Below, in pieces: positions 5,418-24,183 of a stretch of 50,776 nt of DNA. The notes beneath the pieces were generated by a model. The model was not told the DNA's origin. It ran no database searches and saw only the letters and a list, made by a program, of their open reading frames with translations. The DNA is taken from the NCBI GenBank assembly GCA_945862215.1, contig CAMAXY010000015.1:1-50776 (forward strand). The letters run 5' to 3'. Within the stretch, counting starts at the first letter, position 1. Each line of letters opens with the position of its first letter. The translations under genes and the position numbers were made by a program. This DNA is from Singulisphaera sp. GP187. Lineage in GTDB: Bacteria > Planctomycetota > Phycisphaerae > Phycisphaerales > SM1A02.

Positions 5418-5791
5418 AACCCAGGCGACATCGTGCGGGAGCGTCTTTTCGGCTCTCATCCGCTGTTGAGTTTGCCAGCGTTTTTGCCCGCAAAGCACGA
5501 CGCGATCTCGGATGGATCATCCTCCACGCTGCCCCCAATGATCTCGGCCGCACACGACTCGGGCTTTCTATCGGAACACGCGTTGGAAAAGCAGTTCGGC
5601 GCGTTCAAGTCAAGCGAATGATTCGAGAGGCATTTCGTTTGATTCGAACTGAAATTCCACCGGGTATGGATGTTGTGGTCTCTGCAAGATCTCATCCAGA
5701 TCGACCGCTTGCGGATTACAAGCATGCAATCTTGGAAGAATCGAAGCGACTTGCTATTCAACTGAAATTGAAGGATCCACGCAGCGAATGA
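5414..5791 (+). CDS. rnpA: Ribonuclease P protein component
   Basis: This 125-residue basic protein has the RnpA core: FRLSSAVEFASVF at the N-terminus, then GLSIGTRVGKAVRRVQVKR and the RNR-type motif KRMIREAFRLIR, then MDVVVSAR. It binds the catalytic RNase P RNA and helps remove 5' leaders from pre-tRNAs. The start overlaps the end of the ClC gene in ATGA (5414-5417). In most bacteria rnpA lies between rpmH and yidD/yidC in one operon. Here rpmH and yidC are absent and yidD sits just downstream but on the opposite strand, 13 bases away. Confidence 0.93.
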   Translation: MKPRRHRAGASFRLSSAVEFASVFARKARRDLGWIILHAAPNDLGRTRLGLSIGTRVGKAVRRVQVKRMIREAFRLIRTEIPPGMDVVVSARSHPDRPLADYKHAILEESKRLAIQLKLKDPRSE

Positions 5792-5804: not shown

Positions 5805-6047
5805 TTATGGAACAGGATCGTCACCGCATCCGCCCCATGGATGACACCGAGCAAGACGACGAAAAGTCAGCCATCCCCCACTCCACGCGCCATGACGAAT
5901 AAATGCTTCGGTTGCATAGATCGAACATGAAGGATAAAAACGACATCGGCCTCCAAAGACTGGAGAGAGCACGATTTGATACAAGCGAATCAATGCGATG
6001 CAAATTCGCGCAAAGAAAGATGGGCGCGCAAGCGAAGGCGCTGTCAC
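5805..6047 (-). CDS. yidD: YidD, membrane protein insertion efficiency factor
   Basis: This 80-residue protein has the YidD signature: an amphipathic helix with [24 protein letters not shown], then a second half ending [18 protein letters not shown]. The conserved cysteines (CRFYPSC and CHPWGGCG) are present. YidD assists the YidC insertase. I chose the GTG at 6047 because it forms a GTGA overlap (6044-6047) with the stop of the upstream FAH-family gene. The longer open frame to 6413 runs inside that gene and is a shadow. It is convergent with rnpA, which breaks the usual rnpA-yidD-yidC order. Confidence 0.9.
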
Positions 6048-6730
6048 GACGATTCGATCACGGGGTTTGTCAATGTGCCAACAGATTCGATTGATATCTC
6101 TACAACATCTCCATGCTGCAAGTAACGCGGCGGATTTCGCGCGTGCCCGACGCCATGAGGAGATCCCGTGAGAATGATTGTTCCTTTCAAGAGCGTCATG
6201 CCGCGTGAAAGATCGCTGATCAGTTTGGAAACAGAAAAGATCATGTTGGAAGTTGATGAATCCTGCATCAGTTCTCCAGAAACTCGGGTTTGAATCCGAA
6301 GATTCTGCGGGTCTTTTATATTGCTTGCAGAAGTGATCTTGCTGAGAGGACAAAATGTGTCGAAACTCTTGCCTCGACTGAATTGCCCACCTGCTCCTTG
6401 ATTTTGCCACCATCGCGCGCTGACATCATTCGCGACTGCATATCCCTCGACCATTCCAAGTGCATCTGCTTGAGAAACTTCACGGCAATTTGCGCCAAGA
6501 ATCACTGCTAATTCTCCTTCGAAATCGACCTGCGGTCCCCCCTCACGGCAAATTGCGGGAATGATGATCGGTGCCCCATCTGAGATCACGCAGGCTGGAT
6601 TCTTAAAGAAGACGATCGGTCGTGTTGGGATAGTTCCGCCCATTTCCTTGGCGTGATCTGCATAATTGCGACCAATGGCCAAGATTGCTGGCGGTAAAAA
6701 TACGTAAGGAGAGATAGGTGAATGAGTCAT
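6044..6730 (-). CDS. Fumarylacetoacetate hydrolase-family protein
   Basis: This 228-residue protein is a complete single FAH domain. It has NYADHAKEM near 22-30, the metal ligands in DFEGELAVI (E71 and E73) and NDVSAR (D102), then [10 protein letters not shown] (121-130) and the late TGSPHGVG motif. The family acts on 2-oxo or beta-diketo acids with a divalent metal, for example acylpyruvate hydrolysis, oxaloacetate decarboxylation or isomerisation. The sequence does not say which. It is coupled at both ends by 4-base overlaps (ATGA at 6727-6730, GTGA at 6044-6047), so it travels in the long minus-strand operon with yidD. Its link to that operon's membrane functions is unclear. Confidence 0.88.
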
Positions 6731-8682
6731 TTCAATTCCGCAGTCGAGCGTTTGGAAGTCTCGCCCTCAGTTCCCCGCTTCGCGGCTTCGGCGGCCATGG
6801 CTTGGCGATATGGTTCCATGTCTGGAGGCTCGGGGAGTAATTGAGAAAACGGAGCCAACTGAGATAAAGGGTCATTCAAAAATTCTGCTTCGAGTGCCGC
6901 CTTTACAAGATCGAAGACCATACGTCGCTCAGGTTCTCCCGCGCGATTATAGATCGTCAATCGATCGACAAGTGGTTGTGAAGGATCCATCAGTACGTTG
7001 GAAAAAACATCTCGAACACTCGTTCGAAGATTTCCAATGAGATCAGCCATGCGCCGCTCACCAAATTTATTGACAAAGTCTGAATATTGATTCCCTTGAA
7101 AATATTCTGTGAGATCACGGGCAAACTTGACTGCTTCTTCAAGCACCTTCGGCCGATTCATAAGTAATCCCTCTCGGAATCCTCGTGTTAACGCTGCATA
7201 GACATCGCTTCGGGCAACATCTGGCGCTCCAACATATTCGCCATATGTTGCATTTTGAACAAATGTTTCAAGCGGAGCCTCATATTTATTGTTTGGGATT
7301 AGACCGCCTCGACCAAACAAATTATCAAGCTTGGTCAAAATAGTTTGAGCACCGTCATAGTCGCCAAAACGAAACAGTTCGCGCACCTCCTGTGACATGA
7401 AGTTTTGATAAAAGTCACAAAATGAATCGCCTCCACCTCCACGAGTACCAAAGTGTTTGCGATAGAGTTCTCCAAAATACTTGTCGATTGCTTTGATCCA
7501 ACGAGGATCATTCAGCCTGCCAGGATTGTCATTGCTGAATGGGTCATAGTGCATCAATCCTGTTCGAGCGAGTGCCTGCATCGCCTGAATATTCAGGCGA
7601 TCGTTGTTGAGCACCTTATAAATATCTTCTTCATTCGTCGTTCTTTTTGCCGCAGTTGTCGATCCCTTTCGTGCCCAGTAAAAGGCATGCGATTGAGGAT
7701 GACGCCAATCAAATGGACCGAAGTCACGTGTGTATTCCCACATGAGGGCTGGATCCATGTTGTAAGCCTCGCGCAAAACCTTCTTCCGTAGGAAAGGGAG
7801 AAATGCCTCCATGGCTGGCTTAAACTCTGGCTTCGAAAAAATCGTGTCGTATGCGGTATAGACCGGATCATTTTTACGAAATGTCGCTTCAAGACCGAGA
7901 ATTTTCGCATAGCGACTGTCTTGAACGGATTGCCATCGACCAATGTTCTTTAGAAAATCACTGTCGAGTTGAAATTGAAACTTCTGGTCGAAACCAGACA
8001 TACTTCCCCTCAATTGATCCACCATCACCTTGACAGATGGATCCTTGATTTCCAATTCTTCAAGGGAATCCGGAGCATCCTTGATCGCCGCGATCCATGC
8101 AATCCGATCCTGATGTGAAGCTGGTGGTACTCCCAACAAAAACTGCCAATCACGAGCGAACTCTCGCTTGTAGTACAAGTGAGCATCATCAGAAACTCCG
8201 TCAAGTTTGTGCGCAAACCAGAAGGCAATTTCCTTATGTAAAATCAAGTCATTTGGGTTATAGCGAAGCCCCTGATCACGAACTAAATCAATGCCTGCAC
8301 GGACCCATTCCCAACGCTCGCGAGGCGTATCTGTCATGACGGAAATGTTGTAGGCCATATTGTGGCCTTGAAATGCCCACACATCGCCAAATCGAGGTTG
8401 CAGTTTTGTAATGAGTGAGGCATCAGCCATCGCCTCATAGAAGAGTCCCTTCTCTTTCTGGATATTTGTCTTAATCCAGAGATAATCCACGATGATTCCC
8501 CTCAGTGCGCCAATGGCGGTTCCCAATGCGACGATTGGCGGCGCGCCTTCGATTGAAACATCTGTGTAACGCAGACTCCGTTCGTCACTGACACGCAGAA
8601 TGTCAGGCAATAGACGCCCACCAACGATCACACTGATCGTTGCGAGTAGTACGCATCCAAGTTGGATGAGTCGATCACGCAT
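6727..8682 (-). CDS. Membrane-anchored helical protein of unknown function (651 aa)
   Basis: I do not recognise a named family. A single hydrophobic segment at about residues 8-27 should anchor the protein, and the remaining roughly 620 residues are soluble, helical and rich in Trp, Tyr and Phe. The best conserved-looking part is residues 55-115 (LRGIIVDYLWIKTNIQKEKG, then DVWAFQGHNMAYN), which has a TPR-like helix rhythm. The C-terminus is charged and low in complexity (about 625-651). The gene starts 3 bases after the ABC permease stop and overlaps the FAH gene in ATGA, so it is an integral member of the SPFH/ABC operon. It may be an extracytoplasmic partner of the permease, which is inference from context only. 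Confidence 0.75.
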   Translation of the reverse strand: MRDRLIQLGCVLLATISVIVGGRLLPDILRVSDERSLRYTDVSIEGAPPIVALGTAIGALRGIIVDYLWIKTNIQKEKGLFYEAMADASLITKLQPRFGDVWAFQGHNMAYNISVMTDTPRERWEWVRAGIDLVRDQGLRYNPNDLILHKEIAFWFAHKLDGVSDDAHLYYKREFARDWQFLLGVPPASHQDRIAWIAAIKDAPDSLEELEIKDPSVKVMVDQLRGSMSGFDQKFQFQLDSDFLKNIGRWQSVQDSRYAKILGLEATFRKNDPVYTAYDTIFSKPEFKPAMEAFLPFLRKKVLREAYNMDPALMWEYTRDFGPFDWRHPQSHAFYWARKGSTTAAKRTTNEEDIYKVLNNDRLNIQAMQALARTGLMHYDPFSNDNPGRLNDPRWIKAIDKYFGELYRKHFGTRGGGGDSFCDFYQNFMSQEVRELFRFGDYDGAQTILTKLDNLFGRGGLIPNNKYEAPLETFVQNATYGEYVGAPDVARSDVYAALTRGFREGLLMNRPKVLEEAVKFARDLTEYFQGNQYSDFVNKFGERRMADLIGNLRTSVRDVFSNVLMDPSQPLVDRLTIYNRAGEPERRMVFDLVKAALEAEFLNDPLSQLAPFSQLLPEPPDMEPYRQAMAAEAAKRGTEGETSKRSTAELK

Positions 8683-8685
8683 CGA

Positions 8686-10722
8686 TCAACTATCGCCTCC
8701 ACTATAAATAGCAATTTCTTTTTTTCTGAATGCAAGAAAGCCCAACATGAAAACTGCAAAACTCCACAGAATACCAATTTGACCGATGCAACTCATAACT
8801 TTGGTCCATGTGATTGCACGGCCATCTATGAGATCTGTTGAACTTCCTGCGGCAGCAAATGGGGCGAGAGACCACTGAACGGCACCGACTACTTTCTCTA
8901 TAAAGAACTGAGATATCTGAATCAAAATATTTGAATCAGGACTGATTGCGTAGTTCTCTAACGCCAAAGCGAGAAATGGTGAAATCGAGGCAGCAATGAA
9001 AATTGTTACTGAAAGTAAAACAGCAACTGGGAAAGACAACACACTTGCGGCAGCAACTCCTAATGAAGCGATAAAGATTAATTTGACCCAGTCAATCAAC
9101 ATCGCACGGAAATAATTCGCCTCGAATCCTCCAACCCGATGGAGTACCTCGAGTCCATCTGCGTCAAAGTTCATCGACCATGGAGAGGGATATATTTGTC
9201 CATCACTTGTGATACCACCGTTCAAGAGCGTGACTCGGAGAGTCCCATCTTCTCGAATTGCCTCGATGGGAATGACGACCACATTCCGTTGGACTGGAAC
9301 ATAATTGACTTGAAACGCAGGAGAATCTCCAAATGAAATGAGCACCGGAAAAAGATCATGAGAACTGTCTTGGCTGATATGAAAAACATAACGCAGGGTT
9401 GGCTGCGAAGCAGACTGTCGCGCATTTTGCAAACCCGTAAATTCGAAGGAACGACTTTTCCCTGGCTCGATCGTTCGCTGGGCTGCCATAAATTCGGTTG
9501 TCTTTGTAGACCGAATTTCGCGAGCAACATCCACCTCGGATTTGATCCCATCCAAAATTGCCTGCTTCAACAAAGAATCATTTTCGATCGTGCTATTGAC
9601 GATGTCTCGCAGCTTTTCTACATCCATCAACTTATATGCAGGACGTTCCGTTGCACGCGCGACAAGTACTTGGTTTTGAACTGCAGAAGCATCTTGAAGA
9701 TCAGCTGGTGCACGAGTGCTTAAGAGTTGCACATAGCAAAAGACAGCCACTCCTCCGACAATCAGGACGATTCCATTCAGCACAGAGAGGCCAAGGATCT
9801 TACCCGACATGTATTGGAATCTAGAAATCGGCTTCGTCAGAACATTCCAAATTTGTCGATCTCGAATCTCGAATGAAACTGTTGCACATGAGAGAAAAAG
9901 AGTGAGGCATGCTGCAATGACAAAGACCAAGCCAGTTCCTCGGGAAATAAAAGTTTGAATCTGATACCGAAGCGGTTCGCGTTGATCAATCCAAAGAGGG
10001 ATCAATGGCAAAATGATGAGAAGTGCCCCAATAAACCCAATTGATATTCGAAGTCGTTGCGCTTCTATCAATAATGTGTGAGCAACAGCCATGATCTGTC
10101 TTGGAGATGAGAGCGATATCAGTGCAATACGTATCAAGAGAATGAATGCAAAAATCAAAAGCCCAATACCAGCTACCGCAACCATAAGCTGCAAATTGGA
10201 CAGAAACCAAAAAAGAGCCATCAGTCCTCCAGACAAGAGAAGAACAATTATGAATTGAATTCCCATTCCGACCCAAACTGCAAGCAAAATAGATGCTATG
10301 AATCCAAGAGAAATGCCTGCCACGATCCACGGACGTTCAATAATGGTCACTGGTGCCCAGCCTGGAGAAACGGATGATGCGATGAATGACGAGACATAAT
10401 CCGCCTCTGCTATCTTTCCATTGCGATCAAACATTTGGTCGGCAACGGTTCGAATGCGCTCACTTCCAATTTCTACACCATCGATCGTGACAGAGCCGCG
10501 TTCGATTAATTGAACGGCAATTGGATCTTTTTCTGCGATATTTGCTTCTGAGAGGACAGATGCGATTCGCCATCGCAACTTTGAATAGTTGTATGAAGAC
10601 CAACAAAGTGGACCAAGCAAAGCAACGCCACACAGAATGAATGCGAAAGACAATATCCATCGATTGCGCGTGACATCTTGCCATGCAAACAGACGCTCTC
10701 GCCACTCCCGAATTCGAATCAC
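8686..10722 (-). CDS. ABC-2 type transporter permease with large extracytoplasmic region
   Basis: This 678-residue protein has a TM helix at about 22-42, a soluble segment to about 128, and a TM cluster at about 132-245. An ABC-2 permease half follows with the motif EIRDRQIWNVLTKPISR and YMSGKILG (about 285-311) and a TM to about 330. A second soluble domain spans about 335-535, before a TM pair near 540-590 and a last TM near 650. The E-I-x-x-R ... K-P ... R ... G-K-x-L-G motif is shared with the divergent permease at 16632-17669. The start is GTG in a GTGA overlap (10719-10722) with the ATPase gene, so the two should form one transporter. The substrate is unknown. Confidence 0.85.
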   Translation of the reverse strand: MIRIREWRERLFAWQDVTRNRWILSFAFILCGVALLGPLCWSSYNYSKLRWRIASVLSEANIAEKDPIAVQLIERGSVTIDGVEIGSERIRTVADQMFDRNGKIAEADYVSSFIASSVSPGWAPVTIIERPWIVAGISLGFIASILLAVWVGMGIQFIIVLLLSGGLMALFWFLSNLQLMVAVAGIGLLIFAFILLIRIALISLSSPRQIMAVAHTLLIEAQRLRISIGFIGALLIILPLIPLWIDQREPLRYQIQTFISRGTGLVFVIAACLTLFLSCATVSFEIRDRQIWNVLTKPISRFQYMSGKILGLSVLNGIVLIVGGVAVFCYVQLLSTRAPADLQDASAVQNQVLVARATERPAYKLMDVEKLRDIVNSTIENDSLLKQAILDGIKSEVDVAREIRSTKTTEFMAAQRTIEPGKSRSFEFTGLQNARQSASQPTLRYVFHISQDSSHDLFPVLISFGDSPAFQVNYVPVQRNVVVIPIEAIREDGTLRVTLLNGGITSDGQIYPSPWSMNFDADGLEVLHRVGGFEANYFRAMLIDWVKLIFIASLGVAAASVLSFPVAVLLSVTIFIAASISPFLALALENYAISPDSNILIQISQFFIEKVVGAVQWSLAPFAAAGSSTDLIDGRAITWTKVMSCIGQIGILWSFAVFMLGFLAFRKKEIAIYSGGDS

Positions 10723-11969
10723 GTCCTCTTCTCCGAAGGACCATCCATGAGATCATCGATGACTGAACGATCGACAGACGCCTTTGGGTTTTGAGGAGTT
10801 TTTGAATTTGTCGGCGGTTCTCCATCTGGAACTCTCGTGGATGCCGTTGGAGGAACCGACTTGGAATTCAACAATTCATCAAAAATTGCGTTAGTTGTTT
10901 TACCATCTCCTGTCTCGAGTTTGTCAGCAATCGATGGAGAAACTGCTTTGGGAGAATTCGGTTGAGCTGATAGCTTCTGCAATTCAGCAATCACTGCGCT
11001 GCCAGAGTCTTCTGGAGTTTCACTTCCACTTTGCATCAGAAATGATGCCGTTCCCCCACCTTGTTGTGCTCCACTTGTCGCAGCCTGTTCTGTGCGTGCA
11101 CTTTCAACAATCTGAATGAAGAGATCCTCAAGTTTTTGGCGAGGAGAATGAATAGATTCAATCGTCACACCTTCTTCTTTGAGCAAAAGATTGTCCACTT
11201 TTCTGATGGTCTCGGCATGAAGCCGAGACACCGTAATCATTGTTCGGTTGGTATCGCAAAGAAGTTCATCCGTCGTTCCAGCAGCTCGAATTTTGCCGCC
11301 ATAAAGCACCACCATTCGGTCGCAAACGTTTTCGACATCTGCCAAGAGATGAGATGAAAGAAGTATGGTCTTACCGCGCTTGCGAAGGTCCAACAGAAGA
11401 TCCTTGACTTGGCGAGTCCCAATTGGATCAAGGCCAGAAGTTGGCTCATCAAGAATGAGAAATTCTGGATCATTGATGAGAGCTTGCGCCAAACCCAAAC
11501 GTCGAGTCATTCCCTTTGAAAATTCCCCAACTGGTCGGTTCGCTGCACCTTGCAATCCAACCATTTCAAGCAACTCGCCTGATCTCTTACGACGAGTGGT
11601 TCGTGGGATCCCAAAAAGTTTTCCAAAATATTCAAGTGTCTCCTGAGGATTCAGGAATCGATGCATGTAAGACTCTTCGGGCAAGTAACCGATTCGAGAC
11701 TTGACTGAAACATCGGCCGGGTCTCGGCCAAAAACAGTCAAACGTCCTTTACTTTTACGCAATAAGCCCAAGATCAATTTGATCGTGGTGCTCTTCCCAG
11801 ATCCATTTGGTCCAAGCAATCCAAAAATTTCATTTGGCCGAATTTCGAAATCAATTCCATCTACTGCTCGAGCTTTGGACCGCAACCAGAAATCTTCAAA
11901 AATCTTTACAAGGCCAGTTGCTTCTACCAAAGGATGCGCTGATTCTGTCTGAGAAGTTCTGCTCATCAT
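10719..11969 (-). CDS. ABC transporter ATP-binding protein with long repetitive C-terminal tail
   Basis: Residues 14-290 form a complete ABC ATPase: Walker A GPNGSGKS (53-60), Q-loop region YLPEES (95-100), signature FSKGMTRR (150-157), Walker B LILDEPTSGLD (171-181) and switch His in SSHLL (205-209). Residues 291-416 are a Ser/Pro/Gln-rich tail carrying four short hydrophobic/acidic motifs: VIAEL (326), IADKL (347), IFDEL (362) and VIDDL (403). Two ATGs lie in tandem (11969 and 11966), and an AGGAG about 6 bases before the second makes 11966 the likelier start. The GTGA overlap couples it to its permease. It lies 12 bases after the HflK-like gene in the same operon. Confidence 0.9.
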   Translation of the reverse strand: MMSRTSQTESAHPLVEATGLVKIFEDFWLRSKARAVDGIDFEIRPNEIFGLLGPNGSGKSTTIKLILGLLRKSKGRLTVFGRDPADVSVKSRIGYLPEESYMHRFLNPQETLEYFGKLFGIPRTTRRKRSGELLEMVGLQGAANRPVGEFSKGMTRRLGLAQALINDPEFLILDEPTSGLDPIGTRQVKDLLLDLRKRGKTILLSSHLLADVENVCDRMVVLYGGKIRAAGTTDELLCDTNRTMITVSRLHAETIRKVDNLLLKEEGVTIESIHSPRQKLEDLFIQIVESARTEQAATSGAQQGGGTASFLMQSGSETPEDSGSAVIAELQKLSAQPNSPKAVSPSIADKLETGDGKTTNAIFDELLNSKSVPPTASTRVPDGEPPTNSKTPQNPKASVDRSVIDDLMDGPSEKRT

Positions 11970-11981
11970 ATTCTCCTATTC

Positions 11982-13421
11982 CTATCGCCCAAATCCTTTA
12001 TCGCCGGACTGTTCTAATCGACGTCCAGGGCGGTCAATCATAATTTGACGGCTTCCAAGTTGGAATGAAGGCAGTTCCCCTCCGATCATCGCGGCAGCCA
12101 TTTTCTTGCGGGCAATTTCGGAATCACGCCGAGCCTGCATAATGTCGGGAGAACTTTTGACTCGAATCACATAGCGAGCCAATTCGTTTGGAACAGAGAA
12201 GACTTCAACTTCCTTCTGCCCCATCGATTGACGAACTGCTTCGAGCCATAATTGCTGGACAAGCTGACGAGGATTTTCCTTATACGTTGCTGAGAGACTT
12301 GTGACGCGTCGTGTCTCCTTTGCAAGAGTTGCTACCAATGTGGACTGATATGCCTTCGCTTGAATGATAATCCTTGATGCTTCTCCGCCGATATCTGGCT
12401 GCTCAAATCGAATCCCGATTTTCTTCAGAAGTTGGTCAGATACATCTTGATCGCCAGCTGAAAGCGACAATTCATATTGATGTATCAAATCTAAAATTTC
12501 TGCAAACTGAGGACCGGTTGCCCCGACAAGCATTGCACTTGCTTCTTGTCGCGCACGTTCCAAATTCGTCTTCATATCTTCTCGAGCAGTTTGAACGCGT
12601 CTGAGTGCACCTCGCACTGCAAACGGCGCTGTTCTTTCAAGAATCACAACTGCACCTATCTGAATTCCAACATCGAGCTGATCCAGTGAAGTTTGCATGC
12701 GCTGACGAATATCGAGTGCTGGCGTCTCACGCTGTTCCAAAAGTTCCTGAAGAGTGTATTGCGCTACCGTCTGAACAACAGCGCGACGAAGGACTGATTG
12801 CACAAGTGCGTCGGATTTGTCTGCACTGATCTGGGTCAGCATTGCAACTGGATCGACAATTGAATAATCAACAGAAAGTTGCAAATGTGCCAGATCGCCG
12901 TCCGCTGTGATCACAGAGCCGTCACGCCCTGGACGAATTGGAGCACTTGTATCAGCAGAATCAGTTGCCATTTCCAAGGTCAGCTCTTTCTGCGCACGAA
13001 ATGGCCAAAATGCATCGCGAACATCTAAGTTTTGACGCTGCTGCATTGTTGCGAATTCGCCAATGGGATATGGCCAGAAAGGTTGGAGACCAGGAGAGAC
13101 GATTTCATCACCAGAATCACCTGCAACGCTTCCAAAGATTGTTCGAATTCCTGTCACACCTTCGGGGATTGATTGAAAACCAGAAACAAAGAAAGTCACG
13201 ATTAATCCTGCAATCGCGATTTGTAACAAGCGATATGAAAGGCGCAATGCTTCACCCAAACTTTGATTCGCAGGATCCATTGCTTCACGCATCGAAGCGC
13301 GCTCGTTTCCCAGCGAACCCCCACTCAAAATTGCGCTCTTCCCGCGACGGGAAGTATGTGCCGACAGATTCTCGTTTTCAGTTAGATCAGGAGACGGAGA
13401 TTCTGGCAAATCTTGTGCCAT
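11982..13421 (-). CDS. hflK: SPFH-domain protein, HflK-like
   Basis: This 479-residue protein has a polar cytosolic N-terminus, one TM at about 67-86 and an SPFH/Band 7 domain at about 90-320. That domain opens with IPEGVTGIRTIFGSV and contains the HflK-like GLQPFWPYPIGE and the VDYSIVDPVAML strand, then a helical region with QARRDSEIARKKMAA. HflK and HflC form a large membrane cage that modulates the FtsH protease. No ftsH is in the window. The gene starts 2 bases after the HflC-like stop, matching an hflK/hflC pair but in reversed order (HflC-like first). A second HflK-like SPFH protein lies two genes upstream, so this cluster has three SPFH paralogues. Confidence 0.85.
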   Translation of the reverse strand: MAQDLPESPSPDLTENENLSAHTSRRGKSAILSGGSLGNERASMREAMDPANQSLGEALRLSYRLLQIAIAGLIVTFFVSGFQSIPEGVTGIRTIFGSVAGDSGDEIVSPGLQPFWPYPIGEFATMQQRQNLDVRDAFWPFRAQKELTLEMATDSADTSAPIRPGRDGSVITADGDLAHLQLSVDYSIVDPVAMLTQISADKSDALVQSVLRRAVVQTVAQYTLQELLEQRETPALDIRQRMQTSLDQLDVGIQIGAVVILERTAPFAVRGALRRVQTAREDMKTNLERARQEASAMLVGATGPQFAEILDLIHQYELSLSAGDQDVSDQLLKKIGIRFEQPDIGGEASRIIIQAKAYQSTLVATLAKETRRVTSLSATYKENPRQLVQQLWLEAVRQSMGQKEVEVFSVPNELARYVIRVKSSPDIMQARRDSEIARKKMAAAMIGGELPSFQLGSRQIMIDRPGRRLEQSGDKGFGR

Positions 13422-13423
13422 AA

Positions 13424-14401
13424 TTAGGGATTCCCTTTGCTCTTGACACCTTGAATCGCGCTTGAACCAGAATCTTCGACACCATCGACGATGTATGGTT
13501 TCTTCGGTTGGGGAATTCCATTTGTATTACTTGGCGCTGATAGATCGAGCAAATGAAATGGCGCACGATTGAGATCCGTGACAAACGTTGTGCTTCCAGA
13601 GAGGGAACTTTTCAGCGTATCGAGCCACGTTAGAAAAATTGCAAGATCCGCTTCCTGTTTCATCAGTTGGTAGTAACGCGTCGCCTCTTCATTGCCCAAA
13701 GCCTCAATTTCAGCAGCCCACTGCGCTGCAAAGTTTCGAATCGTGTCAGCGGAACTTGCGGCTTGACTCTTGATTGCTTCTGCCTCGGAATTTCCTTTTG
13801 ACTCCTCAAGATTTGCAAGAGTTTCTTGAACTGCCGCCATTCGTCGCAAGACAGCCACCGTTGTCTTTGGCGGCAGGACAATTTGTGAAATGCCAACGCT
13901 CACAGGATTAACTCCAACCAGCTTTGTTGCGCGGAGATCCCCCAAAATTGCATTTTCTGCTTCTGCAATCTTGCTTCCCTGACCGATCAGATCACGAAAG
14001 TTGTATCCACCAAGAGAACGAACAGCGCCTTGTAATTGAGTTGCAAGTTCTTTGCCAGCACCTTCGAGATTTCCATACGAGATGAAAAATTGAAGTGGAG
14101 CATCACCAGTCTCTTCTACTCGCCAAAGAAGGTATGCCTGAACCAAGACTTGCTGGCCATCCTTTGTCAGTACAGTTTCGAGTGGACTTTCAATAAACTG
14201 AAGTCGAGAATCAAGTTTGGCAACTTGATCAATAAAGAGTGGCGCCTTCAAGTGCAATCCAGGGTCGCGCTGAATGCCCGCCGGTTTTCCAAAGCGAGTC
14301 AAGACGGCAATTTCATGAAAATTGACGGTATAAGTTGTGTTAAAAAGCACGAGCACAAAGACGATAATCGATGCGATAATAATTGGGATTTTACGAATCA
14401 T
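13424..14401 (-). CDS. hflC: SPFH-domain protein, HflC-like
   Basis: This 325-residue protein has an N-terminal TM (about 5-22) followed directly by the SPFH domain with VNFHEIAVLTRFGKP, DPGLHLKAPL and KLDSRLQFIE. These are close to the HflC pattern (single TM, 'TRFG', 'GLHFK.P'). A helical, Glu/Ala-rich segment follows (about 195-260, with NSEAEAIKSQAASSADTIRN), as in the HflC oligomerisation region. The start overlaps the 7-TM SPFH gene in ATGA (14398-14401). It is expected to co-assemble with the neighbouring HflK-like protein as a membrane microdomain or protease-regulating scaffold. Confidence 0.87.
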   Translation of the reverse strand: MIRKIPIIIASIIVFVLVLFNTTYTVNFHEIAVLTRFGKPAGIQRDPGLHLKAPLFIDQVAKLDSRLQFIESPLETVLTKDGQQVLVQAYLLWRVEETGDAPLQFFISYGNLEGAGKELATQLQGAVRSLGGYNFRDLIGQGSKIAEAENAILGDLRATKLVGVNPVSVGISQIVLPPKTTVAVLRRMAAVQETLANLEESKGNSEAEAIKSQAASSADTIRNFAAQWAAEIEALGNEEATRYYQLMKQEADLAIFLTWLDTLKSSLSGSTTFVTDLNRAPFHLLDLSAPSNTNGIPQPKKPYIVDGVEDSGSSAIQGVKSKGNP

Positions 14402-16533
14402 TTCTGATCCTTCTTTTCGAGGTAGTCACCTAGGTTCAACCCAGGCTCTGGCTGTTCCATCTGAACGTCAAAGTCGATACGGGAAGGGTCAATAGCCAAA
14501 ACATATTTAATGCGTGCTTCAGAGACGGCGCGTGCCAAAACATTCATAATCGCACGTTCACGATAAAGCTCTGGCGCAGTCCGATACGAAGGAGCCTGAC
14601 CAAGAACTTTGCTTGCCGCAGAGCGCGCACGTAGCAACATGTCCCAACGTCTTGCGTGCGCCAAGCCAATAACACTTGCAACCTGAGCTCGTGCGTCCAC
14701 AATCAATTTTTCGATCTCCGCTCGCTTCGCAATTGATGCTTCAGAACTTTTGCCATATTCTCGTTCGAGCAACTGTAAATTTTGAATTTCAGCCACAACT
14801 TTTCGGGCAACATCCGGGCTCCCAACCAAAGTAGACATCGTTGTATTGACGAGTCGCTTTGCTTCATCGATTACCTTGCGAGAATTCTGAATGTCGATTG
14901 ACAATTCTTCGAACATTGCTGCAGATGCCCCGGCTGGAGGTCGAAGCATTGGTATGAGTATTCCAACAACCTCGACTCCGCTTCGACTGCGATCAAATGA
15001 TGATTGAATTCGTTCCTTGAGTTGCAGAACGAGCGAATCTCCCGAAGGTGAAAGAACTTGATTCAGGGTCAGAGTTGAAAGTAATTGACTAACTTCGCGC
15101 ATCGCGATTGCTTTGATTGCACGCTCGCGCATATCAAGAACAGTTCGACGCGATCTCGAATCACTTGAGAAATTCAGATAGTCAAGCAACCCATCCGTCT
15201 TGACTCGATATTCCAAGACAATGTCTGCATCAACTAAAGCGAATTGAACGGAAACTTGGGATGCTTCGGATCCATCGGCGTTTGGGGTTGCAGAGTTCGA
15301 ATCGCTTGCCGCATTTGAAGGTTGACCAACAACATCTGAACTTGCCAAGACTATAAATGAAGAACGTGTCGAATCTGGCTCTCCTTCGACAGGCCAAAGA
15401 TTGACGTTTGCAACTGGAAGGATCTTCGGACCCAGTACAAGTGTGCGAATCTGCCCAACGCTGAAGCGTTCTATAGATTCAAAAGGCCACGGCCACTTAA
15501 AAATCATTGAACCTTGGGTGACGTCGCCAAGGACCCGTCCACCACGCAATCTGACTGCTTGCTCGCCGGGCTGAACAACCACGACCATCGACATGAGTAA
15601 GAGGATTGCCAAGCCAAGTACAGAAAGGCGAATAATACTGCGAAGGAGAAGTTGATAGCCCCAAGAACTTGTGATGTCGAATCCAAATTGATAATTCACC
15701 GCCTCATTCATGCTTCGAACAATCGAATCTGGTGCTGCAGCCAAACCAAGCAACTTTGAATCGAATGCTGGTCGAGAAAGTTCGATTCGTCTTCGAGGCC
15801 GGTACACATTCAGAATGAGGTTGAGGAGAATCTCCCCTGCAATGACTGCGAGGAAGAGTGCAATTCCATATGCAACACCTTCCAGAACTGCTGGCTTACG
15901 AAAGACCTGAAAGACTGTTCCAACTGCGGCTGCAAGCAAGACGAGTGCATTGCCGACCATCGCACCCGCTCCGCCACGCAAATTCTGCCACGCTGATTGC
16001 TGAGCCATCCCCGCAACAAATCGCGAGAAAATAAACGTAAGCAATGAGAGCGTTGTGCAAATCGCTAATTGCCATCCAAGATTATCTCCAACGCCAAATG
16101 TGACTGCATTTCCAGTTGTGTCATCCAACCGCCCAAGCCATGCCAATGTAAAATATGCGATCGACCCAAGAACAATGACCATCAGTATGCTCACAATTGG
16201 CATGAACCACTGATTCATAAATTTCAATCTGCGAGCTGCAGCTTGACTTGGTTCCCGCTCACCTACAAAGACGCTTTCAGCCCCACCTTGTTGCTGATCA
16301 ATTTCTTCATTTTCGATTGCTTCAATTCGCTCGAGAGTGTGCTGATAAAAAAGAATGATCAGAGATGTCCAAATCAAGATTCCAGAAAGCACATAGACAG
16401 AGGCAAGTACGAGCACAGAATCTCCGACCACTCGTGCAAAAACCAAAAGTGCAAATCCAAGAATGGATTGGATGGCAAGTCCAAAAACAGAAATTCTTGT
16501 TGCCTGTTGATAAACGAAATGGTCTCGATTCAT
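14398..16533 (-). CDS. Polytopic membrane protein fused to an HflK-like SPFH domain
   Basis: This 711-residue protein has about seven predicted TM helices (near 12-33, 38-60, 110-135, 150-172, 190-210, 220-245 and 297-320). The last leads straight into an SPFH domain (VVVQPGEQAVRLRGGRVLGD, then IFKWPWPFESIERF) and a coiled, charged C-terminal part (about 540-700). Ordinary HflK and stomatin proteins have one TM, so the six extra helices are unusual. It is the first gene of the minus-strand operon. The upstream gap (16534-16631) is shared with a divergent ABC-2 permease, so both promoters must lie there. The extra helices may bind a partner membrane protein, possibly the cotranscribed ABC permease. 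Confidence 0.8.
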   Translation of the reverse strand: MNRDHFVYQQATRISVFGLAIQSILGFALLVFARVVGDSVLVLASVYVLSGILIWTSLIILFYQHTLERIEAIENEEIDQQQGGAESVFVGEREPSQAAARRLKFMNQWFMPIVSILMVIVLGSIAYFTLAWLGRLDDTTGNAVTFGVGDNLGWQLAICTTLSLLTFIFSRFVAGMAQQSAWQNLRGGAGAMVGNALVLLAAAVGTVFQVFRKPAVLEGVAYGIALFLAVIAGEILLNLILNVYRPRRRIELSRPAFDSKLLGLAAAPDSIVRSMNEAVNYQFGFDITSSWGYQLLLRSIIRLSVLGLAILLLMSMVVVVQPGEQAVRLRGGRVLGDVTQGSMIFKWPWPFESIERFSVGQIRTLVLGPKILPVANVNLWPVEGEPDSTRSSFIVLASSDVVGQPSNAASDSNSATPNADGSEASQVSVQFALVDADIVLEYRVKTDGLLDYLNFSSDSRSRRTVLDMRERAIKAIAMREVSQLLSTLTLNQVLSPSGDSLVLQLKERIQSSFDRSRSGVEVVGILIPMLRPPAGASAAMFEELSIDIQNSRKVIDEAKRLVNTTMSTLVGSPDVARKVVAEIQNLQLLEREYGKSSEASIAKRAEIEKLIVDARAQVASVIGLAHARRWDMLLRARSAASKVLGQAPSYRTAPELYRERAIMNVLARAVSEARIKYVLAIDPSRIDFDVQMEQPEPGLNLGDYLEKKDQK

Positions 16534-16631
16534 AACTCCTACTAGTTTACGGTGAAATGAAGGAATTGGTTCGATTCTCGGTCACTCCACAAACAAGTTC
16601 AGTCGAATGAGCGTAGAATAAAATTGTTTCT

Positions 16632-17669
16632 ATGGCATTTATAGAACAACTTCTCGCGATCGCACGGAACACTTTCTTTGAGTGCGTCCGCCAACCCATT
16701 TCGTTGGTCATTCTGATCGCATCGGTCCTGCTTGTTTTGATAAGCAACCCACTCTCCGCATTCACCATGTCAGATGACCAACGCATGTACGTGGATATCG
16801 GTCTCTCAACGGTTTTCATGTCAGGTGCAATCCTTGCAGCTTTTCTGGCGACTGCAGTCATCGATGAAGAAATATCAAACCGAACTGTGCTTTTGGTTGT
16901 TTCAAAGCCAGTCGCCAGAGTGACTTTCATTCTTGGCAAATATCTCGGTGCAACCTTGGCATTAACTGCGATCACTGCTGTTCCAGCCTTGACATTTCTA
17001 CTCGTTGAAGTCCACGGCGTTATGCAAACTGCCGCAACACCATATAACTGGCCATGTATCGTCTTTGGACTTGCGGCCGTTTTCATGACCATCGGAACAG
17101 CAACTTGGTGTAATTTTTTCTATGGGAAATCATTTGCTGCTATTGCAGCACTTTTAGGTGGGCCACTTTTGCTTATCGCCTATGTCTTGAGTCTGTTTTT
17201 TGACTCGAAATGGGTTGCGATGAGTGCGGAAACAGAGTTCCGCTTCGACTTGGTCGTCTCAATCCTGCTTATGTTCCTTTCGCTTGGAATCATTTCGGCG
17301 ATTTCCGTGGCAGTGAGTACTCGTTTGGGGCAAGTGCTAACCATTGGAATCACTCTTGCAATATTGGTCCTTGGCCTACTCTCAGACTGGATCTTTGCAC
17401 GAAAAATTGTGGCTCTCGAACAATTGATTACCGTGCGAGATGCGGCTCAAGGAAGTTCATTTGATATCGATCAGCTTGCACTTTGGGCTTACAAGGCGGG
17501 GTATGCCATACTCCCAAATTTCCAAGTTTTTTGGGTCGTTGATGCAGTCAACCAAGGACAACCCATACCGTTGGAATATATTTCTCTTGTCGTTCCATAC
17601 GCGGTTCTGATGACTATTGCCGCACTTGCTCTTGCAACGGCATTGTTTCAACGCCGCGAGGTGGGATGA
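16632..17669 (+). CDS. ABC-2 type transporter permease
   Basis: This 345-residue protein has about six to seven TM helices. Its ABC-2 coupling motif is at about residues 78-110 (DEEISNRTVLLVVSKPVAR, then FILGKYLG), closely resembling the motif in the permease at 8686-10722. There is no ATPase gene beside it. The nearest compatible one is the ATPase at 10719-11969 in the divergent operon, so the two permeases could form a heteromeric transporter with it (inference). The gene stands alone on the + strand between two minus-strand blocks and is divergent from the 7-TM SPFH gene, so the intergenic region of about 100 bp may co-regulate them. Confidence 0.85.
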   Translation: MAFIEQLLAIARNTFFECVRQPISLVILIASVLLVLISNPLSAFTMSDDQRMYVDIGLSTVFMSGAILAAFLATAVIDEEISNRTVLLVVSKPVARVTFILGKYLGATLALTAITAVPALTFLLVEVHGVMQTAATPYNWPCIVFGLAAVFMTIGTATWCNFFYGKSFAAIAALLGGPLLLIAYVLSLFFDSKWVAMSAETEFRFDLVVSILLMFLSLGIISAISVAVSTRLGQVLTIGITLAILVLGLLSDWIFARKIVALEQLITVRDAAQGSSFDIDQLALWAYKAGYAILPNFQVFWVVDAVNQGQPIPLEYISLVVPYAVLMTIAALALATALFQRREVG

Positions 17670-17692
17670 ACAGATTCAAACGCCAGCCTGTG

Positions 17693-18811
17693 TCAACCGC
17701 CCGGCTGTGACCCAGCTTGCATTTCCTTGATTTGCTTACGCATCTGAACAATCTCTTCCTTCAATTGTTCAATTGCCTCTTCGCCAATTTGCAAGTCGTA
17801 CGTCATTTCTGCCGCGCACTTTTTGTACCAATCGACGATCTTCTGGGTATTACGAATTCGCGCTTGGAGGAAGGCTATGCCACCCTGACTCGAACCTTCA
17901 ATCCCGCGCTTTTGCATAAGAAGTGGAACCTCTTCTTTTGCACCAAGAATAAGTTTTTGCCATTTCTCTGCGATGACCTTACCGGCACTATTGGCTTCGA
18001 ATTTTGTCGTGTCATTCACTCCAAGTTCGCGATACAAGTCCATCTCCGTTGCAGCAGTTCCATCTGAAAACCCAGAATGCTCTGCAGATTTTGCGCTGAA
18101 ATCAAGGTTCTCTTTATTATCGCTTAATTTAAACTCATGTTTGTAATCGTTGTAAAAAGTGACCTTGTCTCCAACTTTGTCGTAAGACAATTCGACTTCG
18201 GAGTGAACCATTGCTGGGCCAATTTTTGGATCTCGGTCGCCTGCCGCGCATGCTTCCGCGACTCGAGACTTCCAATCTTCACGAGCGGATGTAATTTCTT
18301 GACGAGTTGCTCCATTGAGCATTGTGATAGAACCCAATGCGGCTTCTGGCATGAAATACATTTCATCGCAATAGAGCCCAGTAAACGCACCGCCCGAAAT
18401 TGCCTTTTCAATCCAGGCAACTAGGCGGTGCTTATTCTTGATTCGGGTGAGGCTTGCAGCAATCAGATCGCCTTCGGTCACGAGCCCACCATTGGAATTA
18501 ATTCGCAAGATGATGACTTGGCCAGGTCCGTACCCGTCAGCGATTTTCTCAACTTGCTCCATCTCATCGTGACGCAAACCGATTCCAACCATGCCGTCGA
18601 GGGGAAGCACGAAAACTTGCTTCTTCGTCTTTTGGATTTGAGCGCCAGCTGTTGCTGCAGATTTCGTTGCGGCTTTGGAGTCGGTCTGAATAGGCGGTTT
18701 GCTCTCTGCACCTTTGGGAGCAGCAGACTGTGCAAAGATTTGTGATTGCGCAGACAAAAGAATGCACGCAATGCAAATGTTTTTGAATACTCGAAGAGAA
18801 AAATGTTTCAT
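17693..18811 (-). CDS. Secreted ClpP/NfeD-fold serine protease-like protein
   Basis: The ATG at 18811 was chosen because GGAG lies 8 bases before it; a TTG 12 bases upstream would contain that site. The 372-residue product has a signal peptide (about 1-28) and a low-complexity linker, then a ClpP/crotonase-like core. The core has LPLDGMVGIG, an oxyanion-type INSNGG (104-109) and ISGGAF with Ser139, followed by Lys181 in DWKSR. A Ser/Lys pair about 41 residues apart is what NfeD (1510-N-type) membrane proteases use, in genomes where they pair with stomatin-type SPFH proteins. The C-terminal 60 residues are coiled-coil. The paralogue at 18827-20158 lies 15 bases upstream, so they form one operon near the SPFH genes. 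Confidence 0.75.
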   Translation of the reverse strand: MKHFSLRVFKNICIACILLSAQSQIFAQSAAPKGAESKPPIQTDSKAATKSAATAGAQIQKTKKQVFVLPLDGMVGIGLRHDEMEQVEKIADGYGPGQVIILRINSNGGLVTEGDLIAASLTRIKNKHRLVAWIEKAISGGAFTGLYCDEMYFMPEAALGSITMLNGATRQEITSAREDWKSRVAEACAAGDRDPKIGPAMVHSEVELSYDKVGDKVTFYNDYKHEFKLSDNKENLDFSAKSAEHSGFSDGTAATEMDLYRELGVNDTTKFEANSAGKVIAEKWQKLILGAKEEVPLLMQKRGIEGSSQGGIAFLQARIRNTQKIVDWYKKCAAEMTYDLQIGEEAIEQLKEEIVQMRKQIKEMQAGSQPGG

Positions 18812-18826
18812 AGAAAACTCCAAAAT

Positions 18827-20158
18827 TTATTGCTCACTCGAAAAATTCGAACCCAGATTCGAACCCAGATTCGAACCAGGCCCCAATCCTCCGCCACCGC
18901 CCTTCTTGCCACCACCTGATGGCGGGGGCGCCGTCGATTTACTCAGGCCACGAATACGTTCTTGCAATCTCAGCAACTCAGTCTCGACTTCCAGTTTAGA
19001 GATCCCGAATTCTTGATTCAGTTTAATTGCAACCGCAGGATATTTCTTAATGATTGATAGGACTTTTTCTAAGATTCCCTTTGCCTTCGTCAGATTCTTT
19101 TTTTCGTCAACTCCTTGGGCGTCCCCCAAAGCTGCTTGGTACTGCGGATATGACTTCGCACAATCTGCCAGTCCCTTTCGCCAACCATCGATGTATTCCC
19201 GAACCAAGACTTCACCATCTTGAGGCATTCGCACGAAACTACGAATTCCCCGTTGGTACATCAGATCTTCGATCATCGTTGCGTCATCATCGGATACCGT
19301 GCCATCGGAAAGTCCAAGTTCTTCTGCCATTTCTGAGGTGAAGTGCGCAGTAATTTTTTCATTGCTCCCATCGACAACCCAAGTCCCCTTCGCGTCATCT
19401 GACCATTCGATCTCGCGACCTTTGAAACTTGCGCTGAGCATCTTGTCTTCTCGCATCATCGCCAAACCTATGGCTGGGTCATAGCCGCCTGCAATGAGGA
19501 AACCATTGCAGATTCCAACAAATGCTTCTCGAAATTTTGCATAGACCTCGGGATCAGCAACTTTGGTTCGTTCCTGAATACGCTCGAGCCCCATCAATCG
19601 GGCTGAGTCTGTCATATACATATTCGACCAGTACAATCCCAACAGTGCGCTATAGCCAACAGCGTCTCGAACAATCATTATCGGTTCTGCGCCGACCTTT
19701 TCGATGACTTCCTTCAGATTTCGTGACATCTTACGAATCCCATCGTCGTCAAAGATTCCGAATTTTCTTGGATCATCACCGAGGTATCTGACACTATCGA
19801 TGTCAGCAGAGTTCAGGACGAATACAACAATGTCTGGGCGCTTTTCCGTAATGTCCTTGGCAATCTGCTCATAAACTTGTGGATGAATATCTAGACCGAA
19901 TTGCCCTTTGTCTTTTATCCCCATTGGGACAACGTAAACAGTCTGTGATTTTTCTGTTGCAATGACCGGCGCAACTGTAGCTGGAGTCTCTTTGCTTGCG
20001 ACCACCTTGGGCGTCGCCTTTGCCGATGGCGTGACGGGTTTTCCAGGCTTCGAAGTCGCAGGTGGTGTTGTCGCGGGCTTTGATTGGGCCGAAGCACTCA
20101 GGTCAACAAGGAAGATGCTCGCGACTGCGACTATTAAAAAAATCTTCGTACGGATCAT
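18827..20158 (-). CDS. Secreted ClpP/NfeD-fold paralogue lacking the catalytic serine
   Basis: I take the ATG at 20158 because it begins directly with a signal peptide (MIRTKIFLIVAVASIF). A TTG 36 bases upstream is possible. The 443-residue product has a Pro/Ala/Lys linker, then the same fold as its neighbour. VGYSALLGLYWSNMY aligns with ISGGAFTGLYCDEMY of the neighbour, placing Gly168 where that protein has Ser139. The oxyanion motif is changed (LNSADI), while the Lys is kept (Lys208). It is therefore probably a non-catalytic partner or a substrate-binding pseudoenzyme. A Gly-rich tail ends in GSNLGSNLGSNF, encoded by a 12-bp tandem repeat. It is followed within 15 bases by the likely active paralogue. 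Confidence 0.7.
   Translation of the reverse strand: MIRTKIFLIVAVASIFLVDLSASAQSKPATTPPATSKPGKPVTPSAKATPKVVASKETPATVAPVIATEKSQTVYVVPMGIKDKGQFGLDIHPQVYEQIAKDITEKRPDIVVFVLNSADIDSVRYLGDDPRKFGIFDDDGIRKMSRNLKEVIEKVGAEPIMIVRDAVGYSALLGLYWSNMYMTDSARLMGLERIQERTKVADPEVYAKFREAFVGICNGFLIAGGYDPAIGLAMMREDKMLSASFKGREIEWSDDAKGTWVVDGSNEKITAHFTSEMAEELGLSDGTVSDDDATMIEDLMYQRGIRSFVRMPQDGEVLVREYIDGWRKGLADCAKSYPQYQAALGDAQGVDEKKNLTKAKGILEKVLSIIKKYPAVAIKLNQEFGISKLEVETELLRLQERIRGLSKSTAPPPSGGGKKGGGGGLGPGSNLGSNLGSNFSSEQ
18845..18877. repeat. 12-bp tandem repeat, about 2.75 copies
   Basis: The unit ATTCGAACCCAG occurs twice perfectly (18845-18856, 18857-18868) and then partially (18869-18877). It encodes the GSNL-type repeat at the C-terminus of the non-catalytic ClpP-fold protein. 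Because the unit is a multiple of three, copy-number slippage would change tail length without a frameshift. Confidence 0.85.
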
Positions 20159-23799: not shown

Positions 23800-24183
23800 A
23801 TGGCAAGCCCCGCAAATTGCAAATTCACCGAATCGCACGAATGGTTCCGAGTCGAAGGAGAGACCGTTGTGGTCGGAATCACCCAATTCGCAGCGAATGA
23901 ACTGACTGACGTCACCTATGTCCAGATGAAACCAAGTGGAACAGCGATTGAATCCGGCGCGAGCCTTGGGGAAGTCGAAAGTGTCAAGACAACCAGCGAT
24001 ATCTATAGCGTGCTTGCTGGTTCAATCGTTGAAGTGAATACAGAAGTGGTCAAAGATCCTTCACTCGTCAATAGCGATCCATTTGGAAAAGGATGGTTAG
24101 TGAAAATGCGTGCAGCGGATGTTGAAAAACTTGGCGGTTTGATGGACGCATCTACTTATGACGCCAAGCATCCAGTCGGCTGA
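23800..24183 (+). CDS. gcvH: Glycine cleavage system H protein
   Basis: This 127-residue protein matches GcvH throughout: TESHEWFRVEG, VVGITQFAANELTDV, GEVESVKTTSDIYS with the lipoylation Lys63, SLVNSDPFGKGWLVKM near the end. The lipoyl arm shuttles aminomethyl groups between GcvP and GcvT. Those genes and gcvL are not in this window. A strong AAGGAG lies 6 bases before the ATG. Its last 26 bases overlap the start of an ABC ATPase gene in another frame, so the two are probably cotranscribed although functionally unrelated. Confidence 0.96.
   Translation: MASPANCKFTESHEWFRVEGETVVVGITQFAANELTDVTYVQMKPSGTAIESGASLGEVESVKTTSDIYSVLAGSIVEVNTEVVKDPSLVNSDPFGKGWLVKMRAADVEKLGGLMDASTYDAKHPVG

Follow-up and report, generated by a model that had tools for sequence, protein, structure and literature searches.

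Locus organisation

The present analysis concerns a 50,776-nucleotide stretch of contig CAMAXY010000015.1 from Singulisphaera sp. GP187 (assembly GCA_945862215.1; the whole stretch is referred to as the window), and within it an island at positions 6044-20158 in which three genes for SPFH-domain proteins, here called the trio, are followed by the genes of a predicted ABC-2-type exporter. We report that six consecutive minus-strand genes of this island form a block whose order is conserved among Planctomycetota, and that the C-terminal tail of the encoded ABC ATPase carries a short motif which follows the trio from locus to locus. The genes of the block and the motif, with the names used here, were as follows.

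14398-16533, minus strand: SPFH1, 711 amino acids, seven hydrophobic segments and then an HflK-like SPFH domain
13424-14401, minus strand: SPFH2, HflC-like, 325 amino acids, one transmembrane segment
11982-13421, minus strand: SPFH3, HflK-like, 479 amino acids, a cytosolic N-terminal tail with a conserved DPANQSL segment and then one transmembrane segment
10719-11969, minus strand: ABC ATPase, 416 amino acids, with a long C-terminal tail
10746-10763, minus strand: VIDDLM tail motif (ABC ATPase residues 403-408), proposed docking motif
8686-10722, minus strand: PERM1, ABC-2-type permease, 678 amino acids, with a beta-rich extracytoplasmic part at about residues 350-530
6727-8682, minus strand: membrane-anchored all-helical solenoid, 651 amino acids, sixth gene of the conserved block

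Transcription runs in the order SPFH1-SPFH2-SPFH3-ABC-PERM1-solenoid, with steps of -4, +2, +12, -4 and +3 bases between successive genes. All nine genes named in an initial annotation of this sequence were recovered at the same positions, including the five minus-strand genes from SPFH1 to PERM1 with the first four of these steps, a divergent second permease (PERM2) and, beyond it, a ClpP-fold pair (CLPB and CLPA). The island had been taken to end at position 8686, which was revised, since the solenoid gene and a gene of the FAH family (6044-6730) continue the operon.

Conservation of the six-gene block

Within the order to which the window belongs, SPFH1 and PERM1 were each found in 39 of 41 genomes, the two genomes without both being 70% (G010) and 94% (G020) complete. 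In 36 of the 41 loci fetched from the 39 genomes (window included) the six-gene run was intact and in the same order; four of the other five stop at contig ends, and the fifth, L062, is a true break, with 6.8 kb after PERM1 free of a solenoid gene and the solenoid of that genome on another contig. The run was also intact in 62 of 80 loci taken from a genome collection (the named set), mostly those of Phycisphaerales and other Planctomycetota; the other 18 start at a contig edge. A phylum sample, picked by solenoid matches and comprising 39 loci with such matches, yielded 18 loci with the intact run in the same order. As the six-gene order was kept where SPFH1 was only 26-33% identical to that of the window, the island is more than a chance cluster.

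The initial annotation had proposed three SPFH genes and a dedicated ABC transporter as one system, to be abandoned if the order were not conserved in relatives or if the SPFH genes always occurred without their partners. Comparison of the neighbourhoods (36/41 and 62/80 intact) established the SPFH and ABC genes as a conserved unit; the ClpP-fold pair was not conserved as part of it (see below).

Among 294 genomes, the solenoid profile matched 197 and the SPFH1 profile 140; no more than three to four candidates per genome were scored in these phylum searches, so that absences are weak. An SPFH1 match of at least 165 bits, a limit set after looking at the table, was present in 53 genomes, 52 of which also had a solenoid match, the exception being 67% complete. 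The exporter part (ABC-PERM1-solenoid) was also found without SPFH genes in the phylum sample, with or without PERM2. The operon of SPFH trio and exporter is a trait of aquatic planctomycete bacteria, strict in its order, and such a conserved SPFH-transporter arrangement is apparently undescribed in the open-licence literature searched.

The C-terminal tail of the ABC ATPase

Approximately 120 residues follow the nucleotide-binding domain of the window's ABC ATPase and end in ...DRSVIDDLMDGPSEKRT. The tail comparison covered 108 loci in which PERM1 or the solenoid is preceded by a usable ABC gene, 26 loci without such a gene having been set aside. SPFH genes lie upstream in 70 of the 108 and are missing there in 33; the other 5, at contig ends, were undecided. 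The tail boundary was set by alignment, and the motif was searched in the loose form [VILMF][IL]xxL[LMVTIA]. Tails of at least 70 residues were present in 68 of the 70 trio loci versus none of the 33 trio-less loci, and the loose VIDDLL-like motif was found in 69/70 versus 0/33, where shuffled tails lead one to expect 2.1 and 0.0. With a stricter form, D..[VMILF][IL][DESG][DGSNEA]L, the counts were 48/70 and 0/33; within the last 90 residues this form was present in 69 of 73 ABC proteins of the named set, a set that shares members with the window's order. An earlier parse of the named set had given the motif in 30/30 of the ABC proteins parsed out of 71. The loose pattern also matches 3 of the 33 trio-less proteins if the last 90 residues are taken, because in short proteins these reach into the ATPase domain.

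The motif follows the trio, and neither PERM2 nor the P1B-type metal ATPase that adjoins the trio in other lineages, since trio-less loci that retain PERM2 (L171, L172, L177, L245-247, L249, L251 and L252) have short tails without the motif, and the window's group retains the motif although its P1B ATPase is unlinked. This tracking suggests a physical link between an SPFH scaffold and the transporter.

The short tails have endings of their own: those of L177, L247, L249, L251 and L252 share GG.LP.FLG, and those of L171, L172 and L245 end in an (A)RFL form. A similar GGTASFL stands in the window's ABC protein directly after the ATPase domain, ahead of the long tail.

Identity and predicted topology of the SPFH proteins

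All three SPFH proteins exceeded the Pfam cut-off for Band_7 (23.6 bits), with 69.6 bits for SPFH3, 78.0 for SPFH2 and 28.8 for SPFH1, and the best PDB profile matches were HflK for SPFH1 (9.4e-25), HflC for SPFH2 (1.4e-47) and HflK for SPFH3 (5.5e-33). The NCBIfam equivalog cut-offs for hflK and hflC were not reached (86.4 versus 159.4 for SPFH3, 100.4 versus 134.4 for SPFH2 and 43.2 versus 159.4 for SPFH1), and for this reason the trio is described as HflK/HflC-like and is not classed as HflK/HflC proper. Hydropathy analysis, with overlapping windows merged, gave seven hydrophobic segments ahead of the SPFH domain of SPFH1. The earlier naming of a seven-transmembrane SPFH1, an HflC-like SPFH2 and an HflK-like SPFH3 was thus confirmed by these profile matches and hydropathy. 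Lysine and arginine lie mostly in the predicted inside loops of SPFH1 (means of 1.4, 5.9, 1.9 and 6.5, versus 0.0, 0.7 and 0.7 outside), which fits a predicted orientation with the N-terminus inside and the SPFH domain outside.

The genome of the window encodes four Band_7 proteins in total, three in the trio and one elsewhere. No M41 peptidase or ftsH gene was found in its incomplete assembly (G000). Loss of FtsH in this lineage was considered and rejected, as ftsH was present in 40/40 relatives searched, where it is not linked to the trio; the absence is probably an assembly gap.

The exporter, the solenoid and the second permease

The ABC ATPase matched ABC_tran with 104.4 bits (cut-off 25). 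PERM2 just reaches ABC2_membrane_2 (27.3 versus 27.2 bits), and PERM1 gave a sub-threshold match to ABC2_membrane_5 (15 versus 25 bits) and aligned to the corresponding region of PERM2 in searches. The names first given to the ATPase and the two permeases were retained, that of PERM1 with a score below the cut-off, and by its sequence the ATPase-PERM1 pair is predicted to form an ABC-2 exporter. The AlphaFold2 model of PERM1 had a mean pLDDT of 87.2, and its outer beta-rich part gave weak CBM/BcsB-like fold matches, with a best E-value of 0.013, low TM-scores and high Foldseek probability. Carbohydrate-linked export was left as a hint in view of these values.

The AlphaFold2 model of the solenoid (mean pLDDT 84.0) shows a membrane helix at the N-terminus and a superhelix made up of helices throughout. 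The protein had no match in Pfam or NCBIfam and none by sequence in PDB (best E-value 0.03), and the fold search returned nothing at E 0.001, the best Foldseek matches being TPR-type proteins at 4.5e-3 with a TM-score of about 0.1.

PERM2 adjoins SPFH1 in 35 of the 36 intact blocks found in the order and in 60 of the 62 from the named set, usually in divergent orientation. In L137-L141, L145, L049 and L050 it is trailed on the divergent strand by an ABC ATPase of its own, so that PERM2 may constitute an exporter in its own right and not a subunit.

Association of the trio with a P1B metal ATPase

Most trio loci outside the window's order carry a gene for a protein of approximately 650 amino acids after SPFH3 or before PERM2. 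The four of these proteins tested were heavy-metal P1B ATPases (504.8-574.5 bits versus 346.25 for TIGR01525). Of 39 trio loci outside the order, with two genomes entering twice, 37 had the ATPase within 4 kb of SPFH1, the distance used to define linkage, as did 6 of 41 loci inside the order, two of them with the ATPase on the opposite strand. No P1B ATPase adjoins the trio of the window, and the nearest homologue lies on another contig of the same genome. The P1B ATPase is thus a steadier extra partner of the trio than the ClpP-fold pair and, being absent from the window's locus, was invisible to the initial annotation. In a tree of 28 P1B ATPases, the linked ones fell on one side of a 100/100 branch, except the two opposite-strand ATPases of family f4, and the nearest homologue of the window's genome fell on the other side. 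Ten linked ATPases were aligned, of which 8 had CPC and 2 had CPG; the specificity motifs fitted no single class, and no metal was assigned.

Outside Planctomycetota the distribution was viewed through a plasmid collection, in which SPFH1 matched six records at E 0.001 and the Burkholderia ATPase ten. Six of these records were inspected. Four annotated plasmids, from Paraburkholderia sprentiae, Burkholderia ubonensis, Klebsiella aerogenes and Rhizobium tumorigenes, carry the row HflK, HflC or SPFH, SPFH or HflK, and P-type ATPase; one unannotated record showed the same row by profile search, and the sixth is likewise unannotated. In these modules, too, the first SPFH protein has several transmembrane segments, and the P. 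sprentiae module is immediately preceded by genes for zinc ABC uptake and for PCu(A)C. The four-gene SPFH-P1B module is mobile, as it is found on conjugative plasmids next to transposase genes in L281 (K. aerogenes pYD-K10_1) and L280 (B. ubonensis pMSMB2035).

A corresponding row is reported in Pseudomonas aeruginosa, where PA2439 (HflK), PA2438 (HflC) and PA2437 (HflC family) are followed by PA2435 (HmtA), a P-type ATPase importing zinc and copper. Genes of this locus were up 5.6-14.4 fold in a znuA mutant (PMC4542158), its proteins were raised on zinc depletion (PMC11761036), and the PA2439 promoter was bound by Zur (PMC8531726); in the latter study hmtA mRNA did not fall on added zinc, and according to a review hmtA is not bound by Zur (PMC10393844). 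In a 2026 study of the SPFH proteins of P. aeruginosa, a single operon (PaFlo5-7) holds three of their genes, and the text searched mentions no ATPase, copper or ABC (PMC13086221); we infer that PaFlo5-7 of PA14 are PA2439-2437.

Flanking genes

The features that flank the conserved block were as follows.

16632-17669, plus strand: PERM2, second ABC-2 permease, divergent
16534-16631, no strand: divergent intergenic region of 98 bases, presumed promoter for both directions
17693-18823, minus strand: CLPB, ClpP/SppA/NfeD1b-type domain, local neighbour outside the conserved block
18827-20158, minus strand: CLPA, divergent CLPB paralogue, local neighbour outside the conserved block
6044-6730, minus strand: FAH-family enzyme gene (FAA_hydrolase, 226 bits), frequent downstream neighbour in the order

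The FAH-family gene overlaps the solenoid gene by 4 bases on the same strand and was present in 19 of 34 (order) and 54 of 58 (named set) assessable intact blocks. CLPA and CLPB are 3 bases apart, beyond PERM2. The pair stands beside the intact block in 17/36 cases in the order, 22/62 in the named set and 0/18 in the phylum sample. Five other genera of the family have the CLPA homologue and the SPFH block on separate contigs. On their distribution, the FAH and CLP genes were rejected as parts of the machine.

CLPB matched NfeD1b_N (67.7 versus 40 bits) and aligned to SppA (4.4e-6), with its Ser143, invariant in 16/16 sequences, falling on the SppA serine, which we take to be catalytic. CLPA had no family match above cut-off and was tied to CLPB by profile-profile comparison (99.1% probability); at the place of the CLPB serine it has a glycine (Gly168), invariant in 15/15, and is a probable pseudo-protease. 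No NfeD C-terminal domain was matched in either protein at E 0.1. The earlier designation of a ClpP/NfeD-fold operon thus stands for the adjacency of the two genes and the NfeD1b_N domain of CLPB, and has to be qualified for CLPA and for the NfeD domain.

Two further arrangements were observed in the window. Frames at 5414-5791 (plus strand) and 5805-6413 (minus strand), presumably RnpA-like and YidD-like, are convergent; rnpA and yidD genes usually stand in a same-strand row. A second ABC system consists of an ATPase at 24158-24961 (plus strand) overlapping a long permease, presumably of the FtsX/MacB type, at 24873-27503 (plus strand) by 89 bases. It lies 1.9 kb from a PlsC-like gene, and several relatives have it close to the block as well.

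Discussion

Taken together, we consider it quite possible, if somewhat short of probable, that the SPFH trio is a scaffold for transporters and that in this case the tail of the ATPase docks a planctomycetal exporter to it, the island then encoding one transport machine. On the model of HflK/HflC and stomatin, SPFH1-3 would form a dome over the outer face of the inner membrane, with docking sites offered towards the cytosol by the seven-transmembrane part of SPFH1 and the cytosolic N-terminal tail of SPFH3. The ABC ATPase would grip the scaffold by its VIDDLL-like tail, and the ABC/PERM1 exporter, with the anchored solenoid as its putative partner protein, would work inside or at the edge of the dome. 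The trio would descend from a module that other Planctomycetota and Pseudomonadota carry next to a P1B metal ATPase and, because it adjoins that ATPase in other lineages, the same scaffold seems to serve different transporters. More doubtful is a stricter version, read from the same sequences, in which a three-part HflK/HflC-type dome encloses the ABC-2 exporter (P1B in other lineages) and the ATPase is locked in by the motif. If this were true, bacterial SPFH trios would be exchangeable transporter housings and not protease regulators; the role of most bacterial SPFH complexes is regarded as an open question (PMC12005517).

Several observations weigh against a fixed scaffold-exporter partnership. 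The trio and P1B ATPase occur without ABC-PERM1-solenoid at L266, L274 and L276 (a further locus, L264, stops at a contig end), and SPFH1 genes stand alone at L265 and L270. The SPFH-ABC link is hence strong but not obligatory. At L276 (G113) the trio and P1B ATPase adjoin a different ABC-2 exporter whose ATPase has no motif, and the scaffold may have changed partners there. The motif is also lacking in the trio locus L192, whose open reading frame is cut to 258 amino acids, and in L248, one of the five undecided loci, which has a P1B ATPase at the contig edge. Furthermore, the motif pattern was written after the sequences had been seen. A first, narrower pattern with a rougher boundary gave 20/35 versus 1/18, the single trio-less match being L164, the trio of which lies across a contig break (L240); in a second version the boundary expression failed for 37 loci, and the rest gave 49/50 versus 0/19. 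On a tree of the ABC domain (85 rows), 5 changes account for the distribution of the trio and 6 for that of the motif, and independent pairs number 2 on well-supported branches, both in agreement, and 5 on the best tree. With so few independent contrasts left by shared ancestry, the association of tail and trio cannot reach significance.

L164 and L240 (G095) belong to a single locus whose P1B ATPase gene is interrupted by a contig break; taken separately, it would be miscounted as trio-less.

Among other explanations, a metal-homeostasis unit, in which the trio and P1B ATPase take up zinc or copper and the role of the ABC exporter is to release a metal-binding compound or to help metalloenzymes mature, appears unlikely. 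The linked ATPases pass the heavy-metal subfamily cut-off, the Paraburkholderia module is flanked by zinc ABC uptake and PCu(A)C genes, and the order matches PA2439-PA2438-PA2437-PA2435, which is induced by zinc depletion (PMC4542158, PMC11761036) and has Zur at the PA2439 promoter (PMC8531726). However, the window's group has no linked ATPase and its nearest homologue falls in a separate clade (100/100), homology to HmtA is drawn from gene order, and the Pseudomonas evidence itself is divided, with hmtA mRNA unrepressed by added zinc (PMC8531726) and no binding of hmtA by Zur according to the review (PMC10393844). We give somewhat less credence to the trio being the lineage's HflKC, regulating FtsH, with the ABC transporter a client or merely co-regulated: three of the genome's four Band_7 proteins are in the trio and ftsH is in all 40 relatives, but it is unlinked, the hflK/hflC equivalog cut-offs are not reached, and both the ABC tail motif and the P1B link would be left unexplained.

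It is improbable, too, that these are housekeeping envelope genes held together by co-transcription with no physical contact. That the FAH gene and other neighbours are also locally conserved would agree with this, yet the presence of the tail motif matches that of the trio, including at exporter loci that are intact apart from the loss of the trio. The initial annotation had assigned the ClpP-fold pair to a quality-control island, as the proteases that remove substrates of an SPFH cage, and this we judge very improbable; the adjacency in the window and close relatives, the NfeD1b_N match of CLPB and the published SPFH-NfeD operons (PMC2636767) speak for it, and are outweighed by a pair that adjoins none of the 18 intact blocks of the phylum sample, is unlinked in other genera of the family, has no NfeD C-terminal domain match at E 0.1 and includes a CLPA without the serine. 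What survives of that proposal is a scaffold or cage holding the exporter, which the conserved unit and the trio-tracking tail support; its proteolytic part found no support.

On the scaffold reading, exporter loci that have or lack the trio amount to a natural experiment across the phylum, in which the ABC tail emerges as the likely point of contact. The planctomycetal loci are also connected in this way with the zinc-responsive HmtA locus, whose HflK/HflC-like genes are poorly understood.

Comparison with known systems

Compared with the HflK-HflC(-FtsH) cage of Escherichia coli, a hetero-oligomeric HflK/HflC cage having been described (PMC12005517), the window likewise has an HflC-like subunit (SPFH2) and HflK-like ones (SPFH3 and SPFH1), but there are three subunits, one with a seven-transmembrane part, and the trio is linked to an ABC exporter and not to ftsH. 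The stomatin dome that encloses AQP1 or UT-B (preprint, PMC12407830) offers an analogy in the shared idea of an SPFH oligomer enclosing a membrane transporter; those domes are eukaryotic, lie on the cytosolic side and involve no ABC transporter. The SPFH-NfeD operons of the stomatin/flotillin type (Hinderhofer 2009) share with the window an SPFH gene with a ClpP-fold neighbour, whereas the neighbour in the window is local, gave no match to an NfeD domain and does not share the conservation of the block.

The closest likeness in gene order is to the Pseudomonas PA2439-PA2435 locus, and this likeness rests on gene order and published labels. Both have three consecutive HflK/HflC-type SPFH genes in one operon, the window's trio showing the arrangement of multi-transmembrane HflK-like, HflC-like and SPFH protein found at the HmtA locus, and the P1B ATPase is placed in the same way in most Planctomycetota outside the window's order and on the proteobacterial plasmids. 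They differ in that an ABC-2 exporter or solenoid is not reported at the Pseudomonas locus and that the window's ATPase is unlinked. With ABC-2-type exporters in general the window shares one ATPase and one ABC-2 permease, encoded as an ATGA-coupled pair, to which it adds the solenoid, the SPFH trio and the ATPase tail motif.

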